A stretch of 64,000 nt of DNA from Oceaniradius stylonematis (GTDB lineage: Bacteria > Pseudomonadota > Alphaproteobacteria > Rhizobiales > Rhizobiaceae), in assembly GCF_003149475.2 (NCBI RefSeq), contig NZ_QFWV02000002.1:49614-113613 (forward strand), written 5' to 3'. The position numbers and the translations under genes were made by a program. Below, piece after piece: positions 15,640 to 27,013 of the stretch; position 1 is the stretch's first letter; every line of letters begins with the position of its first letter. The notes under the pieces are model-generated. The model was not told the DNA's origin. It saw only the letters and a list, made by a program, of their open reading frames with translations, and ran no database searches.

Positions 15640-18600
15640 ATGAACATCGCAGCCGTCCGTCTGGACGACACCTACACCGCGTCCGGGGGCGCGGTGTATA
15701 TGAGCGGCATGCAGGCGCTCGTCCGCCTGCCGATGGTGCAGATGCGCCGGGACCGCGCCGCCGGCCTGAACACCGCCGCCTTCGTGACCGGCTACCGCGG
15801 CTCGCCGCTTGGCGGCTACGACCAGCAACTGGTTCGCGCCAGGAAGCACCTCGATCCGCTCGACATCACGTTCCAGCCCGGCGTCAACGAGGAACTCGCC
15901 GCAACCGCGGTCTGGGGTACGCAGCAGGTCGGTCTGTCGCCGGGCGCCCGAAAGGACGGCGTACTGGGCATCTGGTACGGCAAGGGGCCGGGCGTCGACC
16001 GGTCGGGCGATGTCTTCAAGCACGGCAATGCCGCCGGGTCCGCGCCCCATGGTGGCGTGCTGTGCCTTGCCGGCGACGACCACACTTGCAAGTCGTCGAC
16101 CGTGCCGCACCAGTCCGACCATGCGTTTGCCTCGGCGATCATCCCGTGTCTGTACCCGTCATCCATCCACGAATTTCTGGAGATCGGCCTGCTCGGCATC
16201 GCCATGTCGCGCTATTCGGGCCTCTGGGTCGGCATGAAATTCATTTCCGACACGGTGGAGACCACATCGGTGGTCGATTTGTCCGCAGAAAGCCGCCAGT
16301 TCGTCATTCCGGACTTCGGGCTGCCGCCCGGCGGTGTGAACCTGCGATGGCCGGATGCGCCGCTGGTTCAGGATCAGCGCCTGCAGGAGATCAAGCCCTA
16401 TGCGGCGCTCGCCTTTGCGCGTGCCAACGGGGTCGACCAGATCACCATGGATTCGCCAAAGGCCCGGTTCGGCATTGCCGGCTCCGGCAAGGCTTATGAG
16501 GATGTCCGCCAGGCGCTGTTCGAACTGGGCATCGGAGACGAAGAGGCCGCCCAAATCGGTCTGAGGCTCTACAAGGTGCGGATGACCTGGCCGCTCGAAC
16601 CCGAGGGCGTGCGCGAATTTTCCGAAGGTCTCGAAGAGGTCTTGGTTGTCGAAGAGCGCCGCGAGATCATCGAGAACCAGATCAAGATGCACCTGTTCAA
16701 CTGGCGCGCCGATGTGCGCCCGCGCATCGTCGGCAAGTTCGACGAGCACGACCGGCCTTTCCTGTCGCTGTCCAAGGCGCTGTCGGTGGGGGCGGTGGCG
16801 CGCGGTATCGCCGACCGGGTGCTCAGGCTCGACGGCATCGATGACGGCCTGCGCGACCGGATCGGAGACCGGCTCGCCTATCTCGAAGAGCGCGAGCGTT
16901 TCGCCGAAAGCCATGTGCCGGCCGTCACGCGCCAGCCGCATTATTGCGCCGGCTGCCCGCACAACACCTCGACCAAGGTGCCCGAGGGCTCTCGCGCGCT
17001 GGCCGGGATCGGCTGCCACTACATGGTCCAGTGGATGGACCGGAACACCGAGACCTTCACCCAGATGGGCGGCGAGGGCGTGCCGTGGACGGCCATCGGC
17101 CGCTACACCGATGAAAAGCACGTCTTCGTCAATCTGGGCGACGGCACCTATTTCCACTCCGGCATTCTGGCGATCCGCCAGGCGGTCTCGGCGGGCGCCA
17201 ACATCACCTACAAGCTGCTCTACAACGATGCCGTCGCCATGACCGGCGGCCAGCCGCTCGACGGCAGCCTGACGCCGCAGCAATTGACGCACCAGCTCAA
17301 TCATGAAGGTGTCGGCTCGATCGTCCTGATGAGCGACAATATCGATGCCTACAGCGCGCCGGACTTGCCGCCGGGCACCGACATTCGCCATCGCGACGAG
17401 ATCGATACGGTAATGAAGGAGCTGCGCGAGCAGCCCGGCGTGACGGCGATCGTCTATGTGCAGACCTGCGCGGCCGAAAAGCGCCGCCGCCGCAAGCGCG
17501 GGCTGATGGAAGACCCGGACATGCGCGTGCTGATCAACCCGGCCGTCTGCGAAGGTTGCGGCGACTGTTCGGTGCAGTCCAACTGCATCGCCATCGACCC
17601 GCTTGAAACGGAAATGGGCCGCAAGCGGACGATCAACCAGTCGGCCTGCAACAAGGATTTCTCCTGCGTCAAGGGCTTCTGCCCGTCCTTCGTGACGGTG
17701 CGCGGCGGCGAACTGCGCAAGAGCGCGCGCACCACGGCACCTGATGTTTCGGCCCTGCCCGTGCCCGACCTGCCCGAAATGGCGCCAAGCTGGAACATCG
17801 CTGTGACCGGCGTCGGCGGCACCGGCGTTCTGACCATTGGCGGCATCATCGCCATGGCGGCCCGGCTCGAAAACGTCGCGCCGCTGGTGCTCGACATGGC
17901 GGGTCTCGCGCAGAAGGGCGGCGCGGTGATGAGCCATATCCGGCTGTCGGCCGGCGACAATCCGCGCAAGAGCCCGCGCATCGCGCCAGGCGGGGCCAAC
18001 GTCCTGATCGCCGCCGACAGTGTGGTCGCCGCCTCGCGCGACGGCACCGTGCGCTGCGATCCCGAGCGCACCCATGCGGTGGTCAATGCCAGGCTGACGC
18101 CGGTCGCCGAATTCGTGCGCCAGCGCGATTTCGATTTCCGCAAACAGACGGTCGAGGACACGGTGCGCTCCGTCGTGCGGCCCGATGCCCACTTCCACGA
18201 TTTCGGCAAGGCGGCGATGGCGGTCGCCGGCGACGAGATCGCCACCAACATCCTGATGGTCGGCTTTGCCTGGCAGAAGGGGCTGATCCCGCTGTCGGCC
18301 GATGCGATCGAGCAGGCGATCGCGATCAACGGCGTCGCCGTCGATGCCAACATCGACGCGTTCCGCTGGGGCCGCGTCATGGCGCACGATCCCGCCGCGA
18401 TCGAGGCGATGGAAACCCGTGCCAACGGCTTCAAGCCGATGGCGGAGATGACGGCGGACGAACTGGTTCGCCATCGCGCCGCCCATCTGACCGCCTATCA
18501 GAACGATGCGCTCGCCAAACGCTATCGCGACATGGTCGCGCGTGTCGCATCGGTTGCCGAGGACCGCCTGTCGCAGCCCGCCGACCGCGACGCGTTGGTG

Positions 18601-19125
18601 CGCGCCGTTGCCCATAACTATGCGAAGCTGCTCGCCTACAAGGACGAATATGAGGTGGCGCGGCTGTTTGCCGATCCGGCCTTCGACCGCTATCTGACGC
18701 AGACCTTCACCGGCGATTTCAGACTGTCCTTCAATCTGGCGCCGCCGCTGCTGCCCGGCGAGGACGCCGAGGGCCGGCCCAAAAAGCGCGAGTTCGGTCC
18801 CTGGATGCTGCGCGCCATGCGCCTACTGGCCCGGCTGAAGGGGTTGCGCGGCACCCGGCTCGATCCGTTCGGATACACCGCCGAGCGCCGTGCCGAGCGG
18901 GCGCTGATCGAACAATATGAGGCCGATGTGGAGTTGGCGCTCGCAAGGCTGGATGAGGCGCGGTTCGAGACGTTGCGCGATCTTCTGTCGGTGCCGGAGA
19001 TGATCCGCGGCTTCGGCCCGGTCAAGGAGGAGGCGATGGAAAAGGCCGCAAACGAACGCCGGCGCCTGCACGCCGAGCTTGACAGGCCGCCCGAACAGGC
19101 GCGACTGGCCGAAGCGGCCGAGTAG
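15640..19125 (+). CDS. Indolepyruvate ferredoxin oxidoreductase family protein, alpha-beta-gamma fusion
   Basis: 1161-residue single-chain 2-oxoacid:ferredoxin oxidoreductase, converting aryl (indolepyruvate-like) or branched 2-oxoacids to acyl-CoA with TPP and Fe-S clusters. Domain order: N-terminal pyrimidine-type region with a GYRGSPLGGYD motif (residues 20-60), the TPP domain with CAGCPHNTSTKVP and NLGDGTYFHSG (about 440-560), a 4Fe-4S segment CEGCGDCSVQSNC plus CNKDFSCVKGFCPSF (about 638-690), the gamma domain opening NIAVTGVGGTGVLTIGG (about 720), and a C-terminal domain of about 200 residues found in the aerobic fused forms. A GGGGGAGG site precedes the ATG. It stands 27 bp before liuA and is probably cotranscribed; the 2-oxoacid is not determined by sequence. 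Confidence 0.92.
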   Translation: MNIAAVRLDDTYTASGGAVYMSGMQALVRLPMVQMRRDRAAGLNTAAFVTGYRGSPLGGYDQQLVRARKHLDPLDITFQPGVNEELAATAVWGTQQVGLSPGARKDGVLGIWYGKGPGVDRSGDVFKHGNAAGSAPHGGVLCLAGDDHTCKSSTVPHQSDHAFASAIIPCLYPSSIHEFLEIGLLGIAMSRYSGLWVGMKFISDTVETTSVVDLSAESRQFVIPDFGLPPGGVNLRWPDAPLVQDQRLQEIKPYAALAFARANGVDQITMDSPKARFGIAGSGKAYEDVRQALFELGIGDEEAAQIGLRLYKVRMTWPLEPEGVREFSEGLEEVLVVEERREIIENQIKMHLFNWRADVRPRIVGKFDEHDRPFLSLSKALSVGAVARGIADRVLRLDGIDDGLRDRIGDRLAYLEERERFAESHVPAVTRQPHYCAGCPHNTSTKVPEGSRALAGIGCHYMVQWMDRNTETFTQMGGEGVPWTAIGRYTDEKHVFVNLGDGTYFHSGILAIRQAVSAGANITYKLLYNDAVAMTGGQPLDGSLTPQQLTHQLNHEGVGSIVLMSDNIDAYSAPDLPPGTDIRHRDEIDTVMKELREQPGVTAIVYVQTCAAEKRRRRKRGLMEDPDMRVLINPAVCEGCGDCSVQSNCIAIDPLETEMGRKRTINQSACNKDFSCVKGFCPSFVTVRGGELRKSARTTAPDVSALPVPDLPEMAPSWNIAVTGVGGTGVLTIGGIIAMAARLENVAPLVLDMAGLAQKGGAVMSHIRLSAGDNPRKSPRIAPGGANVLIAADSVVAASRDGTVRCDPERTHAVVNARLTPVAEFVRQRDFDFRKQTVEDTVRSVVRPDAHFHDFGKAAMAVAGDEIATNILMVGFAWQKGLIPLSADAIEQAIAINGVAVDANIDAFRWGRVMAHDPAAIEAMETRANGFKPMAEMTADELVRHRAAHLTAYQNDALAKRYRDMVARVASVAEDRLSQPADRDALVRAVAHNYAKLLAYKDEYEVARLFADPAFDRYLTQTFTGDFRLSFNLAPPLLPGEDAEGRPKKREFGPWMLRAMRLLARLKGLRGTRLDPFGYTAERRAERALIEQYEADVELALARLDEARFETLRDLLSVPEMIRGFGPVKEEAMEKAANERRRLHAELDRPPEQARLAEAAE

Positions 19126-19152: not shown

Positions 19153-20316
19153 ATGTTTACGGCGACGATGAATTTCGCGCTCGGCGAGGAGATCGAGGCG
19201 CTGCGCGACATGGTGCACCGTTTCGCGCAGGAGCAGATCGCCCCGCGCGCTGCCGAGATCGATGCGACCAACCGGTTTCCTGCCGACCTGATACCGAAAC
19301 TGGGCGAATTGGGCCTGCATGGCATCACCGTGCCCGAGGCCGATGGCGGCGCTGGCATGGGCTATCTGGCCCATGTGGTCGCGATGGAAGAGGTCAGCCG
19401 TGCTTCGGCGTCGCTGGCCCTGTCCTATGGCGCCCATTCCAACCTCTGCATCAACCAGATCGCCCGCAACGGCACTGACGCGCAGAAAGCGCGCTATCTG
19501 CCGGGCCTGATCTCCGGCGAACAGGTCGGCGCGCTGGCGATGAGCGAGCCGGGTTCGGGGTCCGATGTCGTCTCCATGAAGCTGCGCGCCGACAAGAGAA
19601 ACGACCGCTACGTTCTGAACGGCAACAAGATGTGGATCACCAACGGTCCCGTCGCCGACACGCTGGTCGTTTACGCCAAGACCGATCCCGAAGCCGGCCC
19701 GCGCGGCATCACGGCGTTCCTGATCGAAAAGCAGATGACCGGCTTTTCGACCGCCCAGAAGCTCGACAAGCTTGGCATGCGCGGCTCGGACACCTGCGAA
19801 CTGGTGTTCGAGGATTGCGAAGTACCGTTCGACAATGTGCTGGGCGAGGAGGGCCGCGGCGTCAACGTGCTGATGAGCGGCCTCGATTATGAGCGCATCG
19901 TCCTCGCCGGCGGCCCGCTCGGCATCATGGCCGCGGCGATGGACGTCGTCATGCCCTATGTGCACGAGCGCGAACAGTTCGGCCAACCGATCGGCGAGTT
20001 CCAGCTGATGCAGGGCAAGCTGGCCGACATGTATACGGTGATGAACGCCTGCCGCGCCTATGTCTACGCCGTCGCGCAGGCCGCCGACCGGGGCGAGACG
20101 ACGCGCAAGGACGCCGCCGGCTGCATTCTCTATAGCGCTGAAAAGGCGACGCAAATCGCGCTGGAAGCGATTCAGTGCCTGGGCGGAAACGGCTATATCA
20201 ACGAATACCCGACAGGACGCCTGCTGCGCGACGCCAAGCTCTACGAGATCGGCGCGGGCACGAGCGAAATCCGCCGCATGCTGATCGGCCGGGAACTGTT
20301 CGCGGAGACGCGGTGA
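19153..20316 (+). CDS. liuA: Isovaleryl-CoA dehydrogenase
   Basis: 387-residue flavin acyl-CoA dehydrogenase of leucine catabolism, oxidising isovaleryl-CoA to 3-methylcrotonyl-CoA and passing electrons to ETF. Seen: [11 protein letters not shown] (FAD region), [34 protein letters not shown] and the C-terminal [17 protein letters not shown]. Glu247 in [14 protein letters not shown] matches the base position used by isovaleryl-CoA dehydrogenases, unlike the C-terminal Glu of most relatives. A GGGGAGG site precedes the ATG. Its stop lies only 2 bp from the antisense hicB stop. Confidence 0.95.
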
Positions 20317-20318
20317 TG

Positions 20319-20681
20319 CTAGCGATTTCGGATCCGAATGCGCCGACGATCATTTTCGGCCGATGCGGCTTCAGAAACAGTATCCATGATCCACTGATTG
20401 AGCGATCGTCCGGTACGTTTTGCGGCTTCATCGGCCATGGCGTGCACCTCGGGATCCAGTCGGAGCGCAAGGCGACCCGAGTACGGCTTCTTGGGCTCGA
20501 TCCCCTTCTCGGCGCAGAACTCCAAATAGTCATCGACGCTGTCTTCGAACGCATTCTGCAATTCAGTCATCGACCCTGCCGAAAAATGAATCATATCGGA
20601 GACATTGGAAACACGGCCATGAAAGGCGGCGTCGTCCTCTTCCCACCAAATATCGGGCACAAATCCTCTATAGCGCTTCAT
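20319..20681 (-). CDS. hicB: HicB-family antitoxin
   Basis: 120 residues. The N-terminal degraded RNase H-like HicB fold (MKRYRGFVPDIWWEEDDAAFHGRV, then LQNAFEDSVDDYLEFC) neutralises HicA. The C-terminal ribbon-helix-helix domain (GRLALRLDPEVHAMADEAA, then RSLNQWIMDTV; about residues 69-101) should bind the operon promoter. Its ATG overlaps the hicA stop by 4 bp (ATGA). It is read antisense to the flanking leucine catabolism genes, and its base composition is lower in GC than theirs. Type II toxin-antitoxin assignment is by family. Confidence 0.9.
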   Translation of the reverse strand: MKRYRGFVPDIWWEEDDAAFHGRVSNVSDMIHFSAGSMTELQNAFEDSVDDYLEFCAEKGIEPKKPYSGRLALRLDPEVHAMADEAAKRTGRSLNQWIMDTVSEAASAENDRRRIRIRNR

Positions 20682-20932
20682 GGTCTGACACCCGCTTGTT
20701 CCAAGAACTCACATAGAGCAACAATAGCACCCTTGTCCGTCGTTGGCCGTGGATGCGGTCGATGGAAAGTCGCAACCTCGCCGTTCAGGAGAACCCGAAT
20801 TCGCGACCCTCGGCCTTCTGAGACCTCGGCTCCCATTGCAACAAGCATCCGCTCGATATCCTGCCACCGAATGTCATTGGCGACCGGCCTACGAAACAGT
20901 TTGGTCAGAGTTCGCTTGTTCTTCGAGTTCAT
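20678..20932 (-). CDS. hicA: HicA-family mRNA interferase toxin
   Basis: 84 residues with the double-stranded-RNA-binding-like HicA fold: IRWQDIERMLVAMGAEVSEG (helix and turn), GSRIRVLLNGEVATFHRPHP with the catalytic-type His (His57 in FHRPHP), and DKGAIVALCEFLEQAGV at the C-terminus. HicA toxins cut mRNA in a translation-independent way. Start chosen at 20932 because GAGGAG lies just upstream; an in-frame ATG at 20962 is less likely. Toxin first, antitoxin second with a 4-bp overlap is the usual hicAB order. Confidence 0.9.
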   Translation of the reverse strand: MNSKNKRTLTKLFRRPVANDIRWQDIERMLVAMGAEVSEGRGSRIRVLLNGEVATFHRPHPRPTTDKGAIVALCEFLEQAGVRP

Positions 20933-21001
20933 GACGCTCCTCGCAAAAGGCATTGACCACAAATGGTCATTCGGCGTGGCACGTCATGCGCTCGATCCGG
21001 C

Positions 21002-21041
21002 ATTGAGATATCAATTTATGATACCACTCCTTGATTGTCAA
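21002..21041 (-). promoter_or_regulatory. hicAB promoter with dyad operator
   Basis: On the minus strand a perfect TTGACA (21041-21036) is followed by a 17-nt spacer and TAAATT (21018-21013). An inverted repeat with ATTGA/TCAAT arms (21002-21015) overlaps the -10 and probable start, as expected for HicB autorepression. It lies about 70 nt before the hicA ATG. The same stretch abuts the liuB start on the other strand. Confidence 0.6.
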
Positions 21042-21058
21042 CGACGTAGGGCGGCCGC

Positions 21059-22615
21059 GTGACAAACCTCCTCCGCACCCAGACCGAACAGACCGCCGCC
21101 GAAGCCGCTCGCATCATGGCCGGCGGGTCCGAGGCGTCGCGCGAGCGGCATCTCAAGCGCGGCAAGCTGCTGCCGCGCGACCGCGTGCAGGGGTTGCTGG
21201 ACCCCGGTGCACCGTTTCTCGAAATCGGGCTCTTTGCCGCGCGCGGCGTCTACGAGGACGACATTCCCGCCGCCGGTGTTATCGCCGGTGTCGGCAAGGT
21301 GTCGGGCCGCGACTGCATGATCGTCTGCAACGACGCGACGGTGAAGGGCGGCACCTACTATCCGCTGACCGTCAAGAAGCATCTGCGTGCCCAGGAGATC
21401 GCCGCCGAGAACCGGTTGCCGTGCCTCTATCTGGTCGATTCCGGCGGCGCCAACCTGCCCAATCAGGACGAGGTGTTCCCGGATCGCGACCATTTCGGCC
21501 GCATCTTCTACAATCAGGCGCGGATGAGCGCGGCGGCCATACCCCAGATCGCCGTCGTGATGGGCTCGTGCACGGCGGGCGGCGCCTATGTGCCCGCGAT
21601 GAGCGACCAGACGATCATCGTGCGCGAACAGGGCACGATCTTCCTGGCCGGCCCGCCGCTGGTCAAGGAAGCCACGGGCGAGGTGGTCGATGCCGAAACG
21701 CTCGGCGGCGGCGACACGCACACGCGGCTTTCCGGCGTTGCCGACTATCTGGCCGATGACGACCATCACGCGCTGGCGCTCGCCCGCCAGATCGTCGCCG
21801 GCCTCGGCCCGGCGCCGGAACCGAGTGTTGCGATCAGGCAAGCGAAAGCGCCTGCTTACGATCCGGACACCCTGTTCGACCTGATCCCCGACGACACCAA
21901 GACGCCCTACGACGTGCGCGACGTCATCGCCCGGATCGTCGACGGTTCCGATTTCGCCGAGTTCAAGCCGCGTTACGGCACGACGCTCGTTACCGGCTTC
22001 GCCCATATTGACGGCGTGCCGGTGGGGATCATCGCCAACAATGGCGTTTTGTTTTCGGAATCGTCGCTCAAGGGCGCGCATTTCATCGAACTGTGCTGCC
22101 AGCGGAAAATCCCGCTCCTGTTCCTGCAAAACATCACAGGCTTCATGGTCGGCTCGAAATATGAGGCCGGCGGCATCGCCAAGGACGGCGCCAAGCTGGT
22201 GCAGGCGGTCTCCACCGCCGCCGTGCCCAAGGTGACGGTGATCATCGGCGGCTCCTATGGCGCGGGCAATTACGGTATGTGCGGCCGCGCCTACGGCCCG
22301 CGCTTTTTGTGGATGTGGCCGAACGCGCGCATCGCCGTGATGGGCGGCGCGCAGGCGGCCGGCGTCCTGGCCACCGTCAAGCGCGCCGGCATCGAGGCAA
22401 AGGGGGCGACGTGGAGCGCGGATGAGGAAGCGGCGTTCAAGCAGCCGACGCTCGATCTGTTCGAGGAGCAATCGCATCCGTTCTACGCCTCGGCGCGGCT
22501 TTGGGATGATGGCATCATCGATCCGCGCACCACGCGCGACGTGGTGGCGCTGAGCTTGCGCGCCGCGCTTAACGCGCCGGTCGAAGAGACGCGCTTCGGC
22601 GTGTTCCGGATGTGA
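21059..22615 (+). CDS. liuB: Methylcrotonoyl-CoA carboxylase beta (carboxyltransferase) subunit
   Basis: 518 residues. It transfers CO2 from carboxybiotin to 3-methylcrotonyl-CoA, giving 3-methylglutaconyl-CoA. Seen: [68 protein letters not shown], the [13 protein letters not shown] segment of the C-terminal crotonase half and [17 protein letters not shown]. The start is GTG, with an in-frame TAG only 12 nt upstream. About 21 residues precede the conserved GG..A..RH..RGKLLPR block, whereas typical family members have roughly 35-40. The 5' end lies directly at the hicAB junction. Confidence 0.94.
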
Positions 22616-22619
22616 CGCC

Positions 22620-24587
22620 ATGATCACCCGTCTCCTCATCGCCAATCGCGGCGAGATCGCCTGCCGCGTGATCCGGACTGCCAAACGCTTGGGCATTACC
22701 ACGGTCGCGGTCCATTCGGACGCGGATGCAGGCGCGCTGCATGTCGAAATGGCCGACGAAGCCGTGCGGATCGGACCGGCGCCGGCTGCTGAAAGCTATC
22801 TGGACATCGATGCGATCCTAAAGGCCGCCAAGGCGACCTGCGCGGACGCGATCCATCCCGGCTACGGGTTCCTGTCCGAAAACCCGGCCTTCGTCGAAGC
22901 GGTCGAGGCGGCCGGGCTGGTCTTCGTCGGCCCGTCGGCGGATGCGATCCGCGCCATGGGCCTCAAGGATGCAGCAAAGGCGCTGATGGAAAAGGCCGGC
23001 GTGCCGGTGGTGCCGGGCTATCACGGCGACAGTCAGAACGCCGATTTCCTCGCCGGCGAAGCCGACCAGATCGGCTACCCGGTGCTGATCAAGGCGCGCG
23101 CGGGTGGTGGAGGCAAGGGCATGCGCAAGGTCGAGCGCGCCGGCGACTTCAAGAGCGCGCTCGAAAGCTGCCGGCGCGAGGCGCAGGGCGCCTTCGGCGA
23201 CGATGCGGTGCTGATCGAAAAATATGTGACCGCGCCGCGGCATATCGAGGTGCAGGTGTTCGGTGACGCGCATGGCAATGTCGTGCACCTGTTCGAGCGC
23301 GATTGCTCGCTGCAGCGGCGCCACCAGAAGGTGATCGAGGAGGCGCCTGCGCCGGGCATGACCGAGGAGGTGCGCGCGGCGATGACGGGCGCGGCGGTGC
23401 GCGCCGCCAGGGCGATCGGATATCAGGGCGCCGGCACGGTCGAATTCATCGCCGACGGTTCGGGTCCGCTCCGGCCCGACGGGTTCTGGTTCATGGAGAT
23501 GAACACGCGGCTGCAGGTCGAGCATCCGGTGACCGAGGCGATCACAGGCCTCGATCTGGTCGAGTGGCAGTTGCGTGTGGCGTCCGGCGAGCCGCTGCCC
23601 AGAGATCAGGACGAGATCGCCATATGCGGCCATGCCTTCGAGGCGCGGCTTTACGCCGAAGACCCGGCCAACGGTTTCCTGCCGCAGACCGGAACGCTCG
23701 CGCATCTGGCGTTCGGCGATGCACGCATCGACACCGGCGTCCGGTCGGGCGATGCCATCTCGCCCTTCTACGATCCGATGATCGCCAAGCTGATCACCCA
23801 TTCGGGTTCGCGCGAACAGGCGCTTGGCCGGCTGCGACGGGCTCTCGCCGAGACCCATGTCGCCGGAACCATGACCAACCGCGCCTTTCTTCTGGCGCTG
23901 GCAAGCCATGACGGATTTGCCGCAGGCGAGCTGGATACCGGCCTGATCGACCGCGATGTGGATGCGCTGACCGCGAAACCGGAGACATCAGACATGGCGG
24001 TGGCTTTGGCAGCCATCGCCGCGCTTGATCTCGATCCGGCCGATCCGCGCCTGGGCTGGCGGCTCTGGGGCGAGGCCAGCCATCAGGTGCGGCTTCTGCA
24101 GGGCGATACCATGATCGGGCGCCGGCTGATCCTGCACGGGCACGGTAGCGTGACGCTGGAGGGCGAGACGCCGTTCCGGCTCGACAATCTGGTTCGCGAC
24201 ACGACGACCATCGGCGGCAATTCGGGCAGCCGTGGCTTCGCCGCCGGTCTCGTGCGCTACCAATCCGCCGGCGCGACCCATGTCTCGGTTCTGCTCGGTG
24301 GCGCGTCGCATGATTTCACGGTGCCCGACCCGCTCACCGCGGGCGCCGATATCGCGGGCAGCGGTGACGCGGTGACCGCGCCGATGACCGGCATCGTGCG
24401 ATTGATCGACGTCGATGTCGGGCAGGCGGTTTCGGCCGGCGACCGGCTGGCGGTGGTCGAAGCGATGAAGATGGAACATCCGCTGACCGCGCCGCGCGAC
24501 GGCACCATTGCCGCGATCCATGGCGAACCGGGCAGCGCGGTGGAGGGCGGTGCCGTGCTGATCGCGCTTGAGCCGGACGAAGACTGA
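22620..24587 (+). CDS. liuD: Methylcrotonoyl-CoA carboxylase alpha subunit (biotin carboxylase + BCCP)
   Basis: 655 residues. The biotin carboxylase half starts ITRLLIANRGEIACRVIRT, with the ATP-grasp glycine loop ARAGGGGKGMRKV (about 160), FLEMNTRLQVEHPVTE-like FMEMNTRLQVEHPVTE (about 290), and the intermediate domain. The C-terminal biotinyl domain ends with EAMKMEHPLTAPRDG, in which Lys617 is the biotin site. It works with LiuB as an alpha6-beta6 type complex in the cytoplasm. It starts 4 bp after the liuB stop. Its own stop overlaps the next ATG by one base. Confidence 0.96.
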   Translation: MITRLLIANRGEIACRVIRTAKRLGITTVAVHSDADAGALHVEMADEAVRIGPAPAAESYLDIDAILKAAKATCADAIHPGYGFLSENPAFVEAVEAAGLVFVGPSADAIRAMGLKDAAKALMEKAGVPVVPGYHGDSQNADFLAGEADQIGYPVLIKARAGGGGKGMRKVERAGDFKSALESCRREAQGAFGDDAVLIEKYVTAPRHIEVQVFGDAHGNVVHLFERDCSLQRRHQKVIEEAPAPGMTEEVRAAMTGAAVRAARAIGYQGAGTVEFIADGSGPLRPDGFWFMEMNTRLQVEHPVTEAITGLDLVEWQLRVASGEPLPRDQDEIAICGHAFEARLYAEDPANGFLPQTGTLAHLAFGDARIDTGVRSGDAISPFYDPMIAKLITHSGSREQALGRLRRALAETHVAGTMTNRAFLLALASHDGFAAGELDTGLIDRDVDALTAKPETSDMAVALAAIAALDLDPADPRLGWRLWGEASHQVRLLQGDTMIGRRLILHGHGSVTLEGETPFRLDNLVRDTTTIGGNSGSRGFAAGLVRYQSAGATHVSVLLGGASHDFTVPDPLTAGADIAGSGDAVTAPMTGIVRLIDVDVGQAVSAGDRLAVVEAMKMEHPLTAPRDGTIAAIHGEPGSAVEGGAVLIALEPDED

Positions 24588-26212
24588 TGCTGCCCGAAGC
24601 GGCAACATACGAGGAGTTGGCCGACCGGTTCCGCTGGGATGTGCCGGAGCGCTTCAACATGGGTGCGGCCTGCTGCGACCGCTGGGCGGAGGCCGATCCC
24701 GACCGGCCGGCCCTGATCCTCGACGATGAAGACCGCACGATCAGCTTTGGCGAACTGCGCGACATGTCGAACCGCATCGCCAATCTGCTCGCGGCCCAAG
24801 GCGTTTTGCATGGCGACCGTGTTGGCGTCCTGTTGCCGCAGGCGGTCGAGACCGCCGCCGGCCATATCGCCATCTACAAGATGGGCGCGATCGCCGTGCC
24901 GCTGTTCGTGCTGTTCGGCCCCGATGCGCTGGAGCATCGCATCGTCGATGCCGGCATCGGGCACGTGATCACGAACCGGGACGGGGCCGCCAAGCTGCGC
25001 GCCATGTCCAAGGGCGCGCAGGAGGGGCTGACGATCGCGACGATTGACGGCGCCCATGACGCTCTCGAAACCGTCGACCTGCACGCGCTGCTGGCGGGCC
25101 AGCCAGCCGATTTCGATGTGATCGACACCGCCGCCGGCGATCCGGCTTTGATCATCTACACGTCTGGCACGACGGGGGCGCCCAAGGGCGCGCTGCACGC
25201 CCACCGGGTGTTGCTCGGCCATCTGCCGGGTGTCGAGATGCACCATGAGTTCTTCCCGCAGCCCGGCGATGTCATCTGGACGCCGGCGGACTGGGCATGG
25301 ATCGGCGGCCTGCTCGATGTGCTTCTGCCGGCGCTGTTTCACGGCGTGCCGGTGGTTGCGCGGCGCTTCGACAAGTTCACTGCCGAGGACGCGTTTGCGC
25401 TGATGGCGCGGCGCAAGGTCACCAACGCCTTCCTGCCGCCGACGGCGCTGAAGATGATGCGCGCGGCGTATCCCGAGGCGCCGCCGCGACGGCTGCATCT
25501 GCGCACGGTCGGCTCGGGTGGTGAGTCGCTTGGTGCCGAGCTTGTCGACTGGGGCCGGAGGGTGCTCGGCGTGACGATCAACGAGTTCTACGGCCAGACC
25601 GAATGCAATCTCGTGATTTCCTCGTGCGCGGCGCTGATGCCGCCGCGCCCCGGCGTGATCGGCCGGCCGGTGCCCGGGCATTCGGTCGCCATCCTGCGCG
25701 AGGATGGCACCGAATGCGCCGAAGGCGAGCAGGGGCTGATCGCCGTGCGCCGGCCCGATCCGGTCATGTTCCTGGAATACTGGAACAATCCTGATGCGAC
25801 GGCTGAAAAGTTCATCGGCGACTGGCTGATCATGGGCGATGTCGGGGTGCGCGAGACGGGCGGCTGGATCCGCTTTGTCGGCCGCGACGACGATGTGATC
25901 ACATCGGCCGGCTACAGAATCGGGCCGGGGAGCATCGAGGATTGCCTGATCCGCCATCGAGCCGTGCGCATGGCAGCCGCCATCGGCAAGCCTGATCCGG
26001 AACGCACCGAAATCGTCAAGGCCTATGTGGTGCTGGCCGAAGGATACGCGCTCGATGCGGCGCTGGAGGCCGGGTTGAAAGCGCACGTCAGGGACCGGCT
26101 TGCCGCGCACGAATATCCGCGCGAGATCGAGGCCGTCGACGAGCTGCCGGTGACGACCACGGGCAAGATCATGCGGCGTGTCCTGCGCGACAGGGCCGCA
26201 CGGGAAGGATGA
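24587..26212 (+). CDS. AMP-binding acyl-CoA synthetase (acetyl/medium- or branched-chain type)
   Basis: 541-residue ANL-family ligase activating a carboxylic acid to its CoA thioester through an acyl-adenylate. Seen: YTSGTTGAPKGALHAH (P-loop, about residues 190-205), INEFYGQTECNLV (A5-type), RFVGRDDDVITSAGYRIGPGSIE (hinge) and the C-terminal Lys in TTTGKIMRRVLRD. It overlaps the liuD stop by 1 bp and precedes liuC by 6 bp, so it belongs to the leucine/isovalerate operon. It probably activates isovalerate or a related short branched acid; the substrate is inferred from context. Confidence 0.88.
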   Translation: MLPEAATYEELADRFRWDVPERFNMGAACCDRWAEADPDRPALILDDEDRTISFGELRDMSNRIANLLAAQGVLHGDRVGVLLPQAVETAAGHIAIYKMGAIAVPLFVLFGPDALEHRIVDAGIGHVITNRDGAAKLRAMSKGAQEGLTIATIDGAHDALETVDLHALLAGQPADFDVIDTAAGDPALIIYTSGTTGAPKGALHAHRVLLGHLPGVEMHHEFFPQPGDVIWTPADWAWIGGLLDVLLPALFHGVPVVARRFDKFTAEDAFALMARRKVTNAFLPPTALKMMRAAYPEAPPRRLHLRTVGSGGESLGAELVDWGRRVLGVTINEFYGQTECNLVISSCAALMPPRPGVIGRPVPGHSVAILREDGTECAEGEQGLIAVRRPDPVMFLEYWNNPDATAEKFIGDWLIMGDVGVRETGGWIRFVGRDDDVITSAGYRIGPGSIEDCLIRHRAVRMAAAIGKPDPERTEIVKAYVVLAEGYALDAALEAGLKAHVRDRLAAHEYPREIEAVDELPVTTTGKIMRRVLRDRAAREG

Positions 26213-26218
26213 GGGGCC

Positions 26219-27013
26219 ATGGCGCGCTACGAAACGATCAGGATTGAAACCGACGCGCGCGGCGTTGCCACGCTGACGCTCGACCGGTCCGACAAGCATA
26301 ATGCGCTCAGTGCGCAGATGATCGCCGAACTGACCGAGGCCGGCAATGCACTTGCCGCCGATCCGGCGGCCCGCGTGGTCGTGCTCCGGTCGGAAGGTCC
26401 GACATTCTGCGCAGGCGGCGATCTGAACTGGATGCGCCAGCAGATGGAAAAGGACCGCGCCGGCAAGATGGAAGGCAGCCGCGCGCTGGCCGATATGCTG
26501 GCGACGCTGAACGGGCTTCCCAAACCACTGATCGCCCGCGTCCAGGGCAATGCCTTCGGCGGTGGCGTCGGCATGCTCTCGGTGTGCGACATCGCCATCG
26601 CCGTGCCCGAAATGCGCGTCGCACTCACCGAGTCCAAGCTGGGCCTGGCGCCGGCGACCATCGGACCGTTCGTCGTCAGGCGGCTGGGAGAGGGGTTTGC
26701 CCGCCAGATGCTGCTGGCCGGCAGGGCCTTCGACGCCGAATTCGCGCTGCGCGCCGGCCTGATCGCCGAAATCTGCCCGGCCGAGACGCTTGATGAGGCC
26801 GTGGACCGGGCCGCGACCGCTGCGCTGATCGGTGCACCGGGCGCGATTGCCGACGCCAAGCAATTCTGCCTGACGTTCGAGCGGCTCGATCCGGCAACGC
26901 TCACCGAGGAGACGGCAGCGCTTCTGGCGGATCGCTGGGAGACGGAAGAGGCGGCCAAAGGCATCGCCGCCTTCTTTGCGCGCAAGCCGCCGCCCTGGGC
27001 GCCCGAAAGCTGA
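26219..27013 (+). CDS. liuC: Enoyl-CoA hydratase family, probable 3-methylglutaconyl-CoA hydratase
   Basis: 264-residue crotonase-fold protein. Seen: TLTLDRSDKHNALSAQMIAEL, the first oxyanion-hole region SEGPTFCAGGDLNWM, NAFGGGVGMLSVCDIAIA (second oxyanion loop) and a Glu-containing TESKLGLAPATI loop. Position as the last gene after liuB, liuD and the synthetase supports 3-methylglutaconyl-CoA hydratase, giving HMG-CoA. The HMG-CoA lyase gene (liuE) that would finish the pathway is not in this window. It is convergent with metC (3-bp gap). Confidence 0.86.
   Translation: MARYETIRIETDARGVATLTLDRSDKHNALSAQMIAELTEAGNALAADPAARVVVLRSEGPTFCAGGDLNWMRQQMEKDRAGKMEGSRALADMLATLNGLPKPLIARVQGNAFGGGVGMLSVCDIAIAVPEMRVALTESKLGLAPATIGPFVVRRLGEGFARQMLLAGRAFDAEFALRAGLIAEICPAETLDEAVDRAATAALIGAPGAIADAKQFCLTFERLDPATLTEETAALLADRWETEEAAKGIAAFFARKPPPWAPES

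Follow-up and report, generated by a model that had tools for sequence, protein, structure and literature searches.

The HicAB system of Sinorhizobium meliloti is a hicA-hicB pair whose HicB has been reported, in the excerpted text of the paper, to bind its operator through a ribbon-helix-helix-type part (PMC6327479). The pair described here, from Oceaniradius stylonematis, shares with it the two-gene composition, a HicB made up of an N-terminal part and a C-terminal part of ribbon-helix-helix type, and the bacterial family. As far as the excerpt of that report goes, the present pair differs in lying antisense inside a catabolic operon, in belonging to a group found mainly at this site and in a G-S-R motif in HicA; operator binding has been reported for S. 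meliloti, and the counterpart here is a palindrome over a predicted promoter, recognised in sequence only (PMC6327479).

An opposite-strand unit lying between the genes of one operon is known from the noncontiguous operon menE-menC-MW1733-ytkD-MW1731 of S. aureus, described in the excerpted text of a review (PMC7154746), and the same layout is found in the present locus. Unlike that example, as the excerpt presents it, the interposed unit here is a toxin-antitoxin pair that is replaced by another pair in other species, and co-transcription across it is presumed (PMC7154746). The Tha/ith immune locus of S. aureus prophages is likewise a noncontiguous operon, one that joins a toxic RNase system to a gene on the opposite strand. 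In the part of the source drawn on, this gene encodes the inhibitor and the operon is carried by phages, whereas the present operon is a metabolic one and the strand opposite to it encodes both toxin and antitoxin (PMC11087260). In congeners and in many other genera the same junction is taken up by a VapBC-like pair, with an antitoxin of MazE/AbrB type and a PIN toxin; this pair is unrelated to hicAB, is encoded in sense and usually lies just before liuB.

HicAB, VapBC and noncontiguous operons are each already known. We consider it probable that the liuA-liuB junction of the Rhizobiaceae is a slot within a closely spaced operon at which small toxin-antitoxin modules are gained, lost and substituted for one another. 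The occupant is most often a sense vapBC-like pair and less often an antisense hicAB. The usual picture of chromosomal toxin-antitoxin pairs is of mobile, scattered units; in the present case two unrelated kinds keep reappearing, in many species, within the same few nucleotides of a single metabolic operon. A search of the open literature by titles and abstract openings has found no description of an intra-operon slot with alternating unrelated toxin-antitoxin pairs.

The window, that is, the whole stretch of 64,000 nucleotides analysed, encodes on its plus strand a presumed operon that begins with an indolepyruvate ferredoxin oxidoreductase-like gene (iorAB-like, 15640-19125; NCBIfam PRK13030, 1578 bits). 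It continues with a liuA-like acyl-CoA (isovaleryl-CoA) dehydrogenase (19153-20316; Pfam acyl-CoA dehydrogenase domains, called liuA from gene order), a liuB-like carboxyltransferase subunit (21059-22615; GTG start, PF01039, E 5.1e-158), a liuD-like biotin carboxylase/biotin carrier subunit (22620-24587; Pfam biotin carboxylase and biotinyl domains), an AMP-forming acyl-CoA synthetase (24587-26212; Pfam AMP-binding) and a liuC-like enoyl-CoA hydratase (26219-27013; NCBIfam PRK07468, just above the cut-off). The names liuA to liuD have been assigned from domains together with gene order.

The gap between liuA and liuB is filled by an antisense pair on the minus strand. The hicB antitoxin gene (20319-20681) encodes 120 residues with a match to PF05534 (E 2.2e-19), and the hicA toxin gene (20678-20932) encodes 84 residues from an ATG, with a possible alternative TTG start at 20962, and matches PF07927, HicA_toxin (E 2.7e-10). 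Both genes are intact and exceed the Pfam cut-offs, and with a HicA-family toxin domain and a HicB-family antitoxin domain side by side they form an adjacent, co-directional two-gene unit of the HicAB type with an overlap of 4 nt. The stop codon of hicB begins at 20319 and liuA ends at 20316; the 2 nt between these convergent genes leave no room for a terminator. The single terminator-like site observed, on the minus strand within the hicA leader, does not exceed chance (0.9 expected). On the other side, 126 nt with a GC content of 53.2% separate hicA from the liuB GTG at 21059. The GC content is 54.4% for 20317-21058, 54.3% for hicB and 54.9% for hicA, against 64.3% for liuA, 66.5% for liuB and 65.1% for the window. 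The sequence-only reading was therefore right in describing an intact antisense pair at 20319-20932, starting 2 nt past the liuA stop and poorer in GC (about 54% against 64-67%) than the flanking genes. It was also right about the neighbours, to which the indolepyruvate ferredoxin oxidoreductase-like gene and the acyl-CoA synthetase gene are now added. The end of liuA contains TGATG (20314-20318, plus strand), the same stop/start overlap that is seen at many short junctions of relatives, and it could, very tentatively, be a vestige of a former liuB start.

Residues 70-108 of HicB match TacA1 (PF08681, E 7.3e-07) and constitute the ribbon-helix-helix-type C-terminal part. A single-sequence model of HicA (mean pLDDT 79) has an extra N-terminal helix followed by a helix, three strands and a helix. 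Against solved structures, with no match at E 0.001, the first-ranked entry is the HicA chain 6g26_E, a weak match at E 0.095 and probability 0.97. Sequence searches of the PDB gave no relative of HicA at E under 1, and for HicB no more than weak matches, at E 0.41 and above, to a hypothetical protein and to antitoxins of the DUF1778 type. Residues G42, S43, R44, H57 and H60 are invariant in all 12 junction HicAs of the survey described below. The arginine of the G-S-R triplet sits where we take the catalytic histidine near the G-S of other HicAs to lie, so that this HicA is a putative toxin. At position 74 the window HicA has a cysteine, and 99% of the other HicAs have arginine. The window's own genome (G000; G, g and L numbers are survey codes for genomes, genera and loci) has two further matches to the HicA profile, at C22:553348-553509 and C18:304517-304678, one above and one below the Pfam cut-off.

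A sigma-70-type scan predicted one promoter for hicAB, TTGACA-17-TAAATT (21013-21041, minus strand), against 0.2 expected in shuffles; it stops 17 nt short of liuB. A palindromic candidate HicB operator (21007-21025, minus strand) lies over it. Sites 1-5 mismatches away from the 19-nt consensus GATATCATATTTTGATATC occur in all 12 junction hicAB loci; the consensus was itself drawn from these loci, and sites with at most 5 mismatches also occur in 10 of 59 non-junction loci (L265 with 1) and in 3 of 2000 shuffles. Beside the operator-like site TTGAC is kept in 11 of the 12 loci, and in five of nine loci aligned it directly adjoins the liuB ATG, with TTGAAA in a sixth. The ribbon-helix-helix-type part of HicB and the palindrome over the predicted promoter together support a type II toxin-antitoxin pair, and the window slot may be described as holding an intact, probably autoregulated hicAB. 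A further motif, GCACGTCATGCGC (20979-20991, plus strand), is identical in four of nine aligned hicA-side intergenic regions. As a general element it was rejected (one match in the window with at most one mismatch, against 0.61 expected, and one copy in the non-junction locus L035), and it is notable solely for recurring between hicA and liuB.

The DNA of the window hicAB was not found in any of the four congeners (G001-G004) with which the source genome (3.58 Mb in 23 contigs) was compared, nor do they have a HicA relative at E 1e-5. Three of them (G001, G003 and G004) have liuB at 93-95% identity, and G002 has no liuB match at E 1e-100. All three readable junctions hold a sense vapBC-like pair, which in G001 consists of an antitoxin-like gene (PF04014) and a PIN-type gene (PF01850); the antitoxin-like protein of G003 has no Pfam match. 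The vapC stop codon overlaps the liuB start, which is GTG in G001 and G004 and, by analogy, TTG in G003. The VapC proteins of G001 and G004 are 87% identical, and that of G003 is only 49 and 45% identical to them; between G001 and G003, liuA is 98% identical over 146 residues, against 49% for VapC. Four species with very similar flanks therefore have three different cassettes at one place. The window's genome has no VapC match at E 1e-10, and no vapBC remnant was noticed on reading the window's own junction.

These observations bear on the proposal that a mobile hicAB cassette was recently acquired by chance insertion into an empty liuA-liuB spacer, as the sequence-only reading had largely envisaged. 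Its absence from all four congeners, a GC content some 10-12 points below that of the flanking genes and the description of HicAB modules as mobile in the excerpted text of PMC2701414 would agree with an acquired cassette, but the congeners have vapBC and not an empty native spacer in all three junctions that could be read. The GC argument loses its force when other genomes are considered. In all 11 junction hicABs with a readable liuA, the pair is 3.4-11 GC points below liuA and follows it (r=0.87), and two other junction hicABs are also GC-poorer than their liuB. Since the deficit is common to all 11 and tracks the host, low GC is a trait of the module and does not date its arrival. The nearest kin of the window pair are, moreover, junction hicABs of other genera with the same promoter layout, and an antisense hicAB at or beside the junction in 13 genomes of 12 genera and on one plasmid speaks against a one-off event. 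We regard a recent chance insertion as very improbable.

In the wider family, 301 of 394 Rhizobiaceae genomes have a liuB match at E 1e-150. The name Rhizobiaceae was assigned from 100% matches to loci of Rhizobium sp. C4, Rhizobium sp. C1, Ciceribacter lividus, Gellertiella hungarica and Aminobacter aganoensis, all of one GTDB family. The junction was read in 147 loci and kept in the 137 with both liuA and liuB in the stretch; as the 10 loci left out lacked one or the other, large inserts are under-counted. The 137 loci were taken non-randomly from the best-listed liuB matches, in stretches of limited length, and are weighted to close liuB relatives. They comprise 89 gaps shorter than 300 nt, 24 vapBC junctions, 18 junctions with other genes and six with hicAB, of which two (L010 and L031) were pre-selected for hicAB, since L009, L010 and L031 entered the survey through hicA hits. 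More than one junction state occurs in 11 of the 47 genera. The gap lengths were measured to the window's liuB start, which is further in than that of other genera, and the true spacers were obtained by applying a simple rule for start codons. On this basis 42 of the 89 short junctions have a liuB start that overlaps the stop of liuA, a further 13 have one within 30 nt, and the median is 2 nt. The unfilled arrangement is thus often a tightly coupled liuA/liuB pair, and the expectation that the two genes usually lie close together is borne out by 55 of the 89. Comparison of the junction in relatives, which the same reading had proposed, gave a divided answer: hicAB recurs there, against a single acquisition, but as a minority state (6 of 137) and not in most relatives.

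Relatives with nothing, with a different toxin-antitoxin pair or with other small genes at the junction make the slot look like a place of exchange. It could also be merely a permissive gap in which any insertion survives, with no tie between toxin-antitoxin modules and the site. Other genes account for 18 of the 48 filled junctions, among them DUF1622, LprI-like, FMN-reductase-like, diacylglycerol kinase-like and PcfJ-like genes and an acyl-CoA synthetase, and the liuB-liuD junction varies too, as a permissive gap would lead one to expect. The vapC relatives are nevertheless concentrated at the site: of the 50 loci read with a VapC relative, 40 include liuA, liuB or both in the stretch, and vapC matches in 80 named loci number four, all upstream of liuB and none downstream. 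On a VapC tree the 51 junction rows of 61 need four changes against 9.4 when shuffled, the four changes meaning that a few junction rows group with non-junction rows. An unselective gap is, on this evidence, unlikely.

A vapBC-like pair has also been observed upstream of liuB in Acuticoccus yangtzensis (L071) and Nitratireductor soli (L135), and the liuA-liuB interval of G221 (L343) contains two vapC relatives.

Among the 71 HicA-relative loci read, 12 are junction loci in which hicAB is antisense to the liu genes (G000, G388, G171, G162, G210, G247, G015, G175, G203, G028, G240 and G154). Both liuA and liuB are found within a few kb on either side in nine of them. In G162 an FMN-reductase-like and an LprI-like stretch separate liuA from hicB, and the acyl-CoA synthetase gene separates hicA from liuB. 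In G203 hicAB adjoins liuA, with liuB about 6.5 kb from liuA, and in G240 it adjoins liuB, with liuA about 15 kb away on the same strand; the slot is therefore not always small. In G388 hicAB comes after liuA and an LprI-like gene, with liuB on a different contig. A thirteenth case, G090, emerged from the search with VapC. The fourteenth was found in Rhizobium sp. BG4, whose 1.6-Mb plasmid pRPC1 (L381) has a liu operon with antisense hicAB. The plasmid locus is a possible route between species, though PLSDB types the plasmid as non-mobilizable. The 14 pairs, each situated between liuA and liuB or next to one of them, thus come from one plasmid and 13 genomes, the latter representing 12 genera. 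From an order-wide search with HicB 24 further loci were read, and in none of these stretches does liuA or liuB occur.

Searches for a donor were carried out with HicB. It matches 1054 plasmid records, all under 60% identity; the best of them, the one record whose context was checked, is itself the liu junction of Rhizobium sp. BG4, and a plasmid source was set aside. A phage source was set aside likewise: 11 phage records match HicB, and the 10 listed do so at 31-37%.

The junction hicABs are related to one another. On a combined HicA and HicB tree of 69 rows (L028 and L029 dropped as near-copies of L027), the 12 junction rows need two changes, against a shuffled mean of 11.3, and none of 500 shuffles was as low. 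An overlap of 4 nt between hicA and hicB occurs in nine of the 12 junction loci, and also in G090 and BG4, against none of 59 other loci, as judged from extrapolated match ends. The junction hicABs do not form one clade in the best tree, since the free tree places 19 non-junction rows, on a long branch, inside their group (fork 92/99); a tree that forces the 12 rows into one clade is 9.98 log units worse, which the test does not reject (p-AU 0.231). The hicABs of g11 and g64 group together. The window hicAB, itself a long branch (0.78), groups with those of g78, g11 and g64 (support 87/93, not starred), and the window liuA does not.

The hicAB and vapBC modules might instead be old in the family and inherited vertically, the present pattern being mostly repeated loss with no exchange between species. 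The single clade that the tree test leaves standing, the tracking of host GC by hicAB and the grouping of the g11 and g64 pairs would all suit such a history. The liuA tree (138 rows, a quick method with many weak forks) gives a mixed account of it: the 24 vapBC rows need 18 changes against 22.4 when shuffled, with none of 500 as low, and the 10 hicAB rows need 10 changes against a shuffled mean of 9.8. The vapBC pairs are thus partly clustered, which fits some inheritance, but hicAB is scattered, and the window hicAB keeps company that its liuA does not. Of 17 vapBC pairs compared within a genus, 13 show a VapC identity of only 44-64% with liuA at 88-98%, and VapC identity in the remaining four is 87-96%; vertical descent alone would not easily produce such a contrast between flank and module. 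Both modules are still present in two genomes, as old inheritance followed by loss would allow. Taking the two sides together, we judge purely vertical inheritance rather unlikely.

Exchange within a slot, the reading preferred here, is illustrated by the mixed and intermediate states. Five genera (g1, g25, g29, g78 and g129) have one species with hicAB and one with vapBC; the hicAB species of g129 has vapBC too, and g78 also has a species with an empty junction. In G090 (L336) hicAB lies against liuA and is followed by a PcfJ-like gene and then by vapBC before liuB. In G203 (L274, L382) hicAB and vapBC are side by side beside liuA, with several kb of other sequence before liuB. In G028 a VapB-like frame of 105 residues lies between liuA and hicAB, 41.8% identical to the G003 VapB over residues 73-145 (E 5.9e-12); no vapC match was found in this junction, and the congener G274 has vapBC. 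The site, its alternative occupants, the kinship of the junction hicABs and these mixed and replacement states can all be read directly from the genomes compared. Empty, single, double and half-replaced junctions form a natural series of how pairs arrive, compete and displace one another, and the series also allows one to ask whether the pairs help to hold the operon in place and whether antisense placement couples the toxin to nutrient use.

The modules would be exchanged by recombination within the conserved flanking genes liuA and liuB. No target-site duplications were recognised among the short repeats found at the cassette edges. Over the 100-nt flank bins identity to the congeners is roughly even, at 79-89% for the 200 nt that open liuB and 85-95% for the 100 nt that close liuA, and no recombination tract was seen beside the window cassette. 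In g85 the 148-157-nt gaps of three congeners of G175 contain no convincing hicAB remnant.

Within the window, HicB would repress its own predicted promoter, and the liu transcript would read through hicAB to give a noncontiguous operon. If the liu transcript reaches liuB, the liu mRNA must cross hicAB as antisense; the HicB complex would for its part sit just before liuB, and mutual interference between liu and hicAB expression would be expected. The genes liuB-liuD-acs-liuC might alternatively have a promoter of their own in the hicA-liuB gap and form a second unit, in which case the antisense overlap would matter little; such an arrangement is compatible with the explanations of origin. The 126 nt of GC-poorer sequence before liuB offers a place for it, but the sigma-70-type scan found a promoter on the minus strand only and none on the plus strand of the gap, other promoter types lying outside the scan. 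A separate liuB promoter is accordingly possible, if somewhat doubtful.

More tentatively, we suggest that the junction could be a docking slot to which particular lineages of hicAB and vapBC have become specialised, spreading from species to species by recombination through the flanks, with their expression wired to leucine catabolism: read-through liu RNA would act as antisense on hicAB, and HicAB at its operator would be a roadblock before liuB. If this coupling is real, the abundance of a growth-arrest module would depend directly on the supply of leucine or isovalerate.

Variation has also been observed elsewhere in the operon. Between liuB and liuD the window has 4 nt (22616-22619); G001 and G004 have about 168 nt there, with an inverted sequence that resembles a repeat, and G003 has about 720 nt. 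The acyl-CoA synthetase gene, which lies between liuD and liuC in the window, separates liuA from liuB in genomes of g64 and g11 (L171, L162 and L263). In the genera g15 and g131 (L040, L044-L050, L064 and L065) liuA is only about 66-72% identical to that of the window and liuB is 84-88% identical, which suggests different histories of the two genes.
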